Below, piece by piece: positions 33,553-35,774 of a stretch of DNA of 63,388 nucleotides (position 1 is its first letter; every line of letters begins with the position of its first letter). Origin of the DNA: an uncultured SAR86 cluster bacterium. GTDB lineage: Bacteria > Pseudomonadota > Gammaproteobacteria > Magnimaribacterales > D2472. The notes beneath the pieces were generated by a model. The model was not told where the DNA came from and did no database searches. It saw only the letters and a program-made list of their open reading frames with translations. The translations under genes were made by a program, and so were the position numbers. The stretch lies in NCBI GenBank assembly GCA_902528215.1, contig CABZRR010000005.1:1-63388 (forward strand). The letters are read 5' to 3'.

Positions 33553-35190
33553 ATGTCCTTTCAGGTTCTTGCTAGAAAATATCGACCTGCTACCTTCTCT
33601 GAAGTAGTTGGACAAGAACACATCTTAAAAGCTCTGGAAAATAGTATTCAGCATAATAAGCTGCATCAAGCATATATTTTTAGCGGTACTAGGGGAGTTG
33701 GGAAAACAACCATTGCTAGAATTTTTGCTAAATCCCTTAATTGTCAAAAGGGAGAAGCGCCGCAACCAGAGCCATGCAACGAATGCACCGCTTGCTTAGA
33801 AATTAAAGCAGGGCGTCACGTTGAATTTTTAGAAGTTGATGCAGCATCAAGAACCGGCGTCGACGATATGAGAGAGTTACTTGAATCTGTTCAATACAAG
33901 CCTGTAAGTGCAAGGTATAAAATTTATCTCATTGATGAAGTGCACATGCTATCTAAAAGTAGTTTTAATGCTTTATTAAAAACTTTAGAAGAACCTCCGG
34001 CACATGTATTTTTTTTAATGGCAACTACTGAGATAGAGAAAGTTCCTAAGACAATTTTATCTCGTTGTTTGCAGTTAAATCTAAAGATTATTCCACAAAA
34101 TCAAATTAGAGATCACATTGTGTTTTTACTTGATCTTGAGGGTATAAAATATGATGAGGAATCACTTAATCTCATTGCAAGCTCAGCTCAAGGATCCATT
34201 CGCGATGGATTAACGCTTTTAGATCAAGCTATAGCTCATGGCAACGGAATGCTTCAATCAGATCAGGTAAAAGCATTATTAGGAACGATTGATCAATCTT
34301 ACATTATTGAGCTTATAAATCATGTGGCTAGCTCAGATGGAGATGGAGCTTATTTGGCATTAAATAAAATTACTGAGCTAAACGTCGAGTATGAACAAGT
34401 ACTAAAAATTATTATTTCTGTTTTGCATAAAATTTCATTACATCAGCAACTCCAGCATAGTGAGGATGCAGATGTAAAGCGATTGGCAGAAATAATTGAT
34501 CCTCAAATTATTCAGTTGCACTATGAGATTTCTCTCAATGCTTTGAGTAAATTCCATGTTCATCCTCATCCAAAGCAAGCTCTTGAATTATGCATTTTAC
34601 GTATGCTTGCTTTTCAACCTCTTTCAGAGAGCGCAGTTCCTAAAATAGAAAAAAAAAATCCTAAATTAGTATCTGAGTCTAAATCATCAAAAACGAATGT
34701 TGTAAAAACTAAGAAGCTTCGAAAAGAAGAACCAAAACCAAAAGACGCAACTAATATTGGATCTGTCCCGAAGGAGTTAAGCGGCAAAAATTCTTCCATG
34801 CTTGCAGATCTTGATTTGCATAGCTGGAACTCGATATTTAATTCACTTAATTTATCCATGTTTGTCAGCCAAGTGTTCTCAGAGTTTGAGTTTGTAGGTT
34901 TTACCGATAATACATTGACTCTAAAAAAATCTGATGATCTGATTAATCCAACTGAAGGATTAAAAACCGAATTTTTAGAGGCTATCGCTGTTCAATTGGG
35001 CCAAAGGATTTCACTAGTCATAAAAAGCGGGGAAGTAATAGCAACGCCTGCAACTTTTAAGAAGGAAATAGCTCAAACTCAACTTAATGATCGTAAAGAT
35101 GCACTTTTGAAGAATGCAGTTGTCAAAGACATCGTGGAAACATTTGGTGGAAAAATTATTGATGAATCTATCAAAAAGGTTAGTTCATGA
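33553..35190 (+). CDS. dnaX: DNA polymerase III subunits tau/gamma
   Basis: Clamp-loader ATPase of the replicative polymerase; full-length tau also bridges polymerase and helicase. 545 residues. P-loop GTRGVGKT at 45-52, zinc site C64, C75, C78, C81, Walker B LIDEVHM, sensor ATTEIEKVPKTILSRC. The clamp-loader core ends near residue 365 and is followed by a lysine-rich linker. At codons 366-369 an A10 run lies in the linker; slippage there would give a 370-residue gamma form. recR follows, overlapping by ATGA. Confidence 0.96.
   Translation: MSFQVLARKYRPATFSEVVGQEHILKALENSIQHNKLHQAYIFSGTRGVGKTTIARIFAKSLNCQKGEAPQPEPCNECTACLEIKAGRHVEFLEVDAASRTGVDDMRELLESVQYKPVSARYKIYLIDEVHMLSKSSFNALLKTLEEPPAHVFFLMATTEIEKVPKTILSRCLQLNLKIIPQNQIRDHIVFLLDLEGIKYDEESLNLIASSAQGSIRDGLTLLDQAIAHGNGMLQSDQVKALLGTIDQSYIIELINHVASSDGDGAYLALNKITELNVEYEQVLKIIISVLHKISLHQQLQHSEDADVKRLAEIIDPQIIQLHYEISLNALSKFHVHPHPKQALELCILRMLAFQPLSESAVPKIEKKNPKLVSESKSSKTNVVKTKKLRKEEPKPKDATNIGSVPKELSGKNSSMLADLDLHSWNSIFNSLNLSMFVSQVFSEFEFVGFTDNTLTLKKSDDLINPTEGLKTEFLEAIAVQLGQRISLVIKSGEVIATPATFKKEIAQTQLNDRKDALLKNAVVKDIVETFGGKIIDESIKKVSS
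34648..34664 (+). other. Candidate programmed frameshift or slippage site in dnaX
   Basis: G followed by ten A and then TCCTAA. In frame 0 it reads GAA AAA AAA AAT. A -1 shift gives AAA TCC TAA, stopping at once, so the product would be 370 residues holding only the clamp-loader domains. E. coli dnaX uses -1 frameshifting on A-AAA-AAG, and Thermus dnaX uses transcriptional slippage on a long A run; the run here could support either. The +1 frame also stops soon after (ATC CTA AAT TAG). No convincing downstream hairpin or internal Shine-Dalgarno is seen. Confidence 0.7.
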
Positions 35191-35774
35191 GCAAAGATTT
35201 GTTGTACGAGTTGATTGAAGCCCTAACTATTTTGCCTGGAGTTGGTAAGAAATCTGCTCAACGTATGGCTTTATTTTTACTAGATAAAAATAAAGATGGT
35301 GCTTCGCATTTAGCTCAGACTCTAGAAGAGTGTCTTGAATCCATTCAACGCTGTGAAGTATGTAGACAATTAACGTCAGAACCCATTTGTAGAATTTGTA
35401 GTGATGAATCGCGCGATGCATACAGCTTGTGTGTTGTTGAAAGTCCATCAGATGTATTGGCCATAGAATCTACTGGAGGTTTCAAAGGTAAATATTTTGT
35501 CTTGATGGGGCGTCTTTCACCAATTGATGGAGTATCACCTGATGATCTTGGTATCCCAGATTTATTACGTCATATCAAAGGTGCAAAAATTGAGGAAGTT
35601 ATTCTCGCAACCAGCTCAACCGTTGAGGGAGATGCTACAGCAACTTTTATCAATGATCATCTTGAGAGTGTCAAAGTTTCAAGAATATCCTATGGTATTC
35701 CTATTGGAGGAGAGTTAGAGTATGTTGACGGCAACACTATTGCCCGAGCCATTCAAGGGAGGATTGAAATTTAA
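35187..35774 (+). CDS. recR: Recombination protein RecR
   Basis: Works with RecO/RecF to load RecA on gapped DNA. 195 residues, the normal size. Helix-hairpin-helix [13 protein letters not shown] near residue 17, C4 zinc finger ([16 protein letters not shown]) at about 57-72, and a TOPRIM domain beginning [14 protein letters not shown] and ending in a [13 protein letters not shown] Walker-like loop. Overlaps dnaX by ATGA and abuts dcd by one base. The small ybaB gene that normally sits between dnaX and recR is missing from this locus. Confidence 0.95.

Follow-up and report, generated by a model that had tools for sequence, protein, structure and literature searches.

The dnaX gene of an uncultured SAR86 bacterium carries ten consecutive adenines at the point where the clamp-loader part of its product passes into the part specific to tau, and both alternative reading frames end shortly behind them. 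The locus raises the question of whether one gene yields two subunits there, tau and a shorter gamma-like protein, and, if so, whether RNA polymerase or the ribosome slips. The window, i.e., the whole stretch of DNA analyzed, was 63,388 nucleotides in length. Its genome belongs to SAR86, with AG-313-N18 and AG-313-D11 as the nearest named relatives found (80% DnaX identity).

The dnaX Gene and Its Product

The gene was found with recX on one side and recR on the other (Table 1). Direct reading of the sequence confirmed the A10 run, which is flanked by G at 34648 and T at 34659. The zero frame crosses it with the codons GAA AAA AAA AAT CCT AAA TTA GTA (residues 366–373). In agreement with the preliminary description, the −1 frame (AAA TCC TAA) closes two codons on, at residue 370, with a product ending in IEKKKS, and the +1 frame (AAA ATC CTA AAT TAG) closes within five codons; read from the A10 gene sequence, the latter gives a product of 371 aa ending in EKKILN.

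The run had also been placed at the boundary between the clamp-loader domains and the tau tail, and this position was borne out by alignment, domain and structure data. The E. coli gamma chain 1jr3_A (its residues 1–370) aligned to DnaX residues 1–365, and the Pfam domain III match ended at residue 354. The AlphaFold2 model of DnaX (mean pLDDT 81.7) was folded up to about residue 359, had pLDDT below 50 at residues 360–413, and was folded again from residue 414; the structures that it matched best in Foldseek were clamp-loader chains of E. coli, aligned along about 362 columns. The match to tau domain V (PF12170, residues 423–540) scored 27.6 bits, slightly under the cut-off of 28.8. Taken together, the 1jr3_A alignment and the disorder boundary of the model indicate that truncation at the A run would leave a complete module of domains I–III.

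The start codon of recR overlaps the dnaX stop in the window (ATGA, 35187–35190). Ribosomes making the short product would terminate about 520 nt before recR, and the coupling of recR may depend on tau synthesis. A total of 299 phage records matched dnaX, none of them across more than 80% of the query.

Table 1. Features of the dnaX locus in the window.
Feature	Position	Strand	Basis
dnaX, full-length product tau, 545 aa	33553..35190	+	TIGR02397 dnaX_nterm, E 2e-126; E. coli gamma/tau structures
Clamp-loader domains I–III, residues 1–365, common to tau and the predicted gamma	33553..34647	+	1jr3_A alignment
Weak SD-like purine stretch AGAGAGCG, 5' of the run; possible minor ribosomal stimulator	34626..34633	+
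Tau linker, predicted disordered, residues 360–413, with the run near its start	34630..34791	+	pLDDT <50
A10 run, putative slippage site, read in the zero frame as gAA AAA AAA AAt	34649..34658	+	A9–A11 in 159/162 SAR86 dnaX
TAA, −1-frame stop (via A11 mRNA or −1 ribosomal shift), predicted product 370 aa	34662..34664	+
TAG, +1-frame stop (via A9 or A12 mRNA), predicted product 371–372 aa	34667..34669	+
Tau-specific folded tail, residues 414–545, lost in the predicted gamma	34792..35187	+	AlphaFold2 model, PF12170
recR, ATG overlapping dnaX TGA	35187..35774	+	TIGR00615

The Run in Relation to Genome Composition

Homopolymer runs were counted in 461 kb of the window genome, in 434 ORFs that are each 100 aa or longer (420 kb of coding sequence). 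The dnaX run was the only run of at least ten A or T inside these ORFs. Synonymous codon shuffling within genes gave an expectation of 8.5 A runs and 5.9 T runs of this length, 14.4 in total versus the 1 observed. Runs of A9 were not depleted in the same ORFs (28 observed versus 26.9 expected). The whole 1.175-Mb assembly contained 8 runs of at least ten A, of which 5 lay within ORFs in the sense orientation. A control A10 run in an aldolase-like gene of the same genome, followed through 26 genomes of the genus, was retained in 2 of 12 genes, including itself.

In two further genomes, A9 was slightly depleted in the ORFs: 12 observed versus 15.4 expected in G176, and 20 versus 22.9 in G195. 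The run had the length A9 in 21 of the 23 dnaX genes of family f3 and in 7 of the 13 of family f4. The idea that the length of the dnaX run tracks the avoidance threshold of each genome found no support, since A9 was hardly depleted in the sampled genomes of these two families; A9 may slip little there.

Conservation across the SAR86 Order

A search of 203 genomes of the order gave 171 with dnaX at E ≤ 1e-60, and 162 of these genes were examined; the dnaX of G096 was left out because it is cut at a contig end. Interruption of the run by synonymous AAG codons in relatives had been named beforehand as evidence against recoding. The 162 genes, which come from four families (f1–f4) and 21 genera, showed instead an A9–A11 run in 159 cases, at most 40 codons beyond the domain III anchor. 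All 162 genes together contained only six other runs of at least nine A. From amino acids and codon use, runs of at least nine A would be expected in 9.2 of the 21 genera, and they were observed in 20, the genera in these counts not being independent samples. The run starts 25–76 nt downstream of the anchor, and its codon phase differs between families (mostly 1 in f1, 0 in f3, 2 in f4, and 1 or 2 in f2). The variable start and phase show that the run is not maintained merely by conservation of an aligned peptide.

Three genes did not conform: G162 (f3) was without the run, G056 had A8 and a frame break, and G043 came from a broken assembly, in which A10 was nevertheless present. The dnaX of G162 (L194; 1.8-Mb genome) was the single one seen in SAR86 whose open linker lacks an A run. 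In G032, G056, and G187, the run differs from that of relatives by one A; the zero frame ends just after it, and the tau tail remains open in another frame, which corresponds to a two-ORF layout. These one-base differences may also be assembly errors; they would be tolerable if slippage yields both forms anyway. In G025 (L239, G025:C1:1017500-1019200), the A10 run was intact, and a frame break was found about ten codons beyond it, with the tail open in another frame. Slippage was rejected as a means of bridging this break, because the break is situated downstream of the run and would persist in slipped mRNA; it represents a mutation or a sequence or assembly error.

A lysine column encoded only by AAA throughout the order (151/151) was considered as separate evidence and set aside, as G162 and the frame-broken genes had been dropped from it and a run of at least nine A implies AAA. 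Within the genus of the window (g1), 3 of the 27 other conserved lysine columns were also AAA throughout.

Closure of the Alternative Frames

A −1-frame stop was present within nine codons in all 159 run-bearing genes, and a +1-frame stop within nine codons in 150 of them, lying farther in the other nine. The first frame to close was −1 in 84 genes and +1 in 75, a count that includes the frame-broken G025, G032, and G187. Because transcriptional slippage can add bases as well as remove them, a functional site must have stops in both alternative frames; in −1 ribosomal frameshifting, only the −1 frame need close. The closure of each frame was therefore compared with synonymous resampling of the downstream codons in 152 genes of 20 genera, ten of the 162 genes having been dropped (broken frames, absent run, N).

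At the run, the mean mid-percentiles were 0.395 for the −1 stop, 0.310 for the +1 stop, and 0.206 for both; a rerun with the code used for the controls reproduced these values (0.394, 0.310, and 0.205). The genera with values below 0.5 numbered 14, 17, and 20 of 20, respectively. Other AAA codons of the genes gave 0.493, 0.466, and 0.467, and AAA codons in the 200 nt that follow the run gave 0.488, 0.411, and 0.409. In a paired comparison with these nearby codons, the value for both frames was lower at the run in 19 of the 20 genera. Since the nearby codons were also below 0.5 for the +1 frame and for both, part of the +1 excess reflects local composition. In other gammaproteobacteria, the 14 A_AAA_AAG sites of the E. 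coli type gave 0.146, 0.456, and 0.376. Thus, the E. coli-type genes favour a −1 stop, and the SAR86 genes favour closure of both frames. Calibrated on these 14 genes, closed-frame resampling provides a sequence-only test able to separate transcriptional from ribosomal slippage.

Stimulators of Ribosomal Frameshifting

Folding of the 60 nt downstream of the run gave no hairpin signal in the order (genus-mean z of −0.17, with at most six genes per genus), although the test is weak, the 11 E. coli-type controls averaging only −0.79. In the same test, z was −0.32 for the window and −0.43 on average for g1. A search of Rfam gave no match in the window; this result was uninformative, as six control loci likewise gave no dnaX element.

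Upstream pairing with the anti-SD sequence was at background in the order as a whole (−2.7 versus −2.6) and reached −7.8 in the E. coli-type controls. In g1, an SD-like stretch was found, and in 18 of 22 genes its best match begins 19–23 nt ahead of the run; its strength was −5 kcal/mol or better in 14 of the 22, that of the window itself being weak (−2.9). The SD-like stretch of E. coli dnaX lies closer, about 10 nt upstream of its shift site. The run of the window reads as A_AAA_AAA and A_AAA_AAT and contains no in-frame A_AAA_AAG, a heptamer that was present inside the run in some genes of genus g3 and of f4.

Comparison with Known dnaX Systems

In Thermus thermophilus, slippage is reported at an A9 run of dnaX followed by stops in both frames, with about half of the product being short (PMC1088944, PMC5009743). 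The SAR86 gene shares with it the homopolymer A run, tau encoded in one ORF, and near stops in both non-zero frames. It differs in that its run is mostly A10 and follows domain III directly, and in that the host is a marine gammaproteobacterium of low GC content, where slippage is predicted from sequence. For E. coli and its relatives, the signal described is a slippery AAAAAAG preceded by an SD-like stretch and followed by a hairpin (PMC3711429). The gene, the clamp-loader module as the predicted short product, and the near −1 stop are common to both; in contrast, the window has no A_AAA_AAG in its run and no hairpin signal, its SD-like stretch is weak and distant, and a near stop closes the +1 frame too.

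The GeneTack survey describes two-ORF dnaX genes, in which tau arises by recoding, with poly-A of 7–10 bases in 12 of 17 genes (PMC3711429). Poly-A is shared with SAR86, where the two-ORF layout occurs in 3 of the 162 genes (G032, G056, and G187, see above); unlike in the two-ORF genes, tau is the zero-frame product in the window and in nearly all the SAR86 genes examined. According to a rule given in the same survey, orthologues that vary in the direction of the frame change indicate transcriptional realignment (PMC3711429), with which the variable first-closing frame in SAR86 agrees. In Blochmannia, dnaX frameshifts in poly-A are reported downstream of the gamma site (PMC3017870).

Among 73 gammaproteobacterial dnaX loci from outside SAR86, many of them from GC-rich genomes and therefore not a matched control, A_AAA_AAG was followed by a −1 stop within three codons in 13 and by no near stop in 5, A9 or A10 runs were present in 5, and the other 50 had neither heptamer nor run. 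Loci that combine the heptamer with an A run were counted under the runs, hence the 14 E. coli-type genes in the resampling. SAR86 keeps one form almost uniformly; the class sample is mixed. Three loci, L052, L053, and L115 (Methylococcaceae, Cycloclasticus, Thiotrichaceae), have an A9–A10 run in the linker of dnaX, followed in both the −1 and the +1 frame by a stop within five codons, and are candidates for the same mechanism.

The open-licence literature searched contained nothing on SAR86 dnaX and no relevant papers on recoding in SAR86 or on transcriptional slippage in Pelagibacter. The SAR86 dnaX is a new, order-wide case of an already known kind of recoding. If the proposed mechanism is true, a whole order of ocean bacteria produces two subunits in the manner of Thermus, which is directly testable in metatranscriptomes.

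Proposed Mechanism and Alternatives

The A10 run is probably a maintained transcriptional slippage site from which tau and a gamma-like subunit would be produced. The preliminary description had proposed tau/gamma recoding closer to the Thermus than to the E. coli form, and the comparative data favour this proposal, supporting it short of proof: the run is retained throughout the order, both frames are closed by synonymous choice, the run occurs in three codon phases, and no consistent hairpin or SD-like stretch accompanies it. A candidate second slippage locus in the order, described below, also counts in favour of slippage. At the run, RNA polymerase would produce dnaX mRNAs of mixed length, some with 10 A's and others with 9, 11, 12, or other numbers. 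Those with 10 or 13 A's would encode tau (545 aa, or one extra lysine), and other run lengths would lead into a frame that soon reaches a stop, so that a clamp-loader subunit resembling gamma and about 370 aa long would result. This short product would comprise domains I–III and lack most of the linker and the tail. Slipping of the polymerase in SAR86, the tau:gamma ratio, and a short protein that is stable and used are what we infer.

Programmed −1 ribosomal frameshifting at A_AAA_AAA, with accurate transcription, would make gamma by the logic of E. coli at another shift site. The universal near −1 stop, the somewhat favoured −1 closure (0.395), the SD-like stretch of g1, and the A_AAA_AAG within some g3 and f4 runs are consistent with it. 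It is nevertheless unlikely, because closure of the +1 frame is favoured at least equally (0.310) and hardly so in the E. coli-type genes (0.456), neither an SD-like stretch nor a hairpin signal was found order-wide, and the runs are longer than the seven bases that such a shift needs. That both mechanisms act, with transcriptional slippage giving most of the gamma and ribosomal slippage on the lysine AAA codons adding some, is less probable still. One run is a possible substrate for either, and the mechanisms are called interchangeable at some locations (PMC3711429), but the ribosomal stimulators were not seen order-wide; given the SD-like stretch of g1, some ribosomal −1 shifting is possible.

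We regard as very improbable a chance or neutral origin of the run, without recoding, from AT-rich sequence in a disordered, lysine-rich linker. For any single genus other than g20, the probability of a run of at least nine A, given amino acids and codon use, is 0.26–0.67. Chance was rejected on the order-wide retention, in more than twice the number of genera expected, together with the avoidance of longer runs in the genome, the decay of the control A10, and the preference for stops in both frames. Proteolysis of tau, reported as the source of gamma in Caulobacter (PMC5009743), with the run kept for another reason, would leave both the A run and the stops unexplained and is scarcely credible here.

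A Second Candidate Locus at the iscA–fdx Junction

One of the five in-ORF runs of at least ten A in the window assembly is an A11 outside the window, lying between an IscA-type domain and an ISC ferredoxin (Fdx) within one ORF (locus G000:C20:3686-4402). Five congeners from g1 have A10 at this place. Immediately past the run, their IscA frame terminates with VKKK and a stop; their fdx is in the −1 frame and has none of the starts ATG, GTG, or TTG upstream of its conserved core. Each of the seven run-bearing g1 genomes contained one fdx at E ≤ 1e-3, their assemblies being incomplete. The strict junction pattern was present in 11 of 202 SAR86 genomes from two families; the run-bearing sets comprise the seven g1 genomes, three of genus g6, and most of the f4 loci read. 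A single iscA–fdx ORF was found in G000, G012, and G048, the run being A11 in the first two and A10 in the last of these (g6).

In f4, 13 of the 15 loci read (16 fetched) carried A9–A10 at the junction. In 11 of the 15, the IscA frame ended right after the run and fdx was encoded in the −1 frame; these 11 had no fdx start except for a TTG inside the conserved core in four. In G183 and G196, the run stood in other frame relations, the fdx of G196 having an ATG; in G191 and G193, fdx had an ATG and there was no run. All 19 loci read (20 fetched) from other SAR86 genera and f1 relatives had an fdx ATG and no A run longer than five at the junction.

Judging from the sequence, the iscA–fdx run is a candidate second slippage locus in the order, with a fusion product predicted; for the fdx genes lacking a start, the rare starts ATA or ATT are possible. 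Polymerase slippage on A9–A11 might then be a standing device of SAR86 at two or more loci, a view that we find evenly balanced: it would act at dnaX order-wide and at iscA–fdx in several lineages, where A9–A10 ends IscA and the start-less Fdx would be made only as a slipped IscA–Fdx fusion, or as an unslipped fusion where the run keeps the frame. If so, the run length may drift by one base at little cost. Recoding of iscA–fdx was not found in the open-licence literature searched, and the main text of the GeneTack survey does not contain the words ferredoxin or iscA; if true, this would be a recoded gene pair not found in print.

In the f2 genera g11, g12, and g14 (L414–L423: G112, G107, G108, G118, G115, G121, G146, G143, G140, and G134), the ISC ferredoxin is greatly extended at its C terminus, in an open frame of 243–245 aa. 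This frame was rejected as an IscA–Fdx fusion, since it begins with Fdx and extends C-terminally (the stretches read end before the end of the frame). The junction DNA of G024 (g1, L334) is nearly identical to that of G050 and G051 (g6, L380/L381), and transfer of the iscA–fdx locus between genera is possible in view of this similarity. Two other g6 genomes, G047 and G049, have separate iscA and fdx genes without the run.
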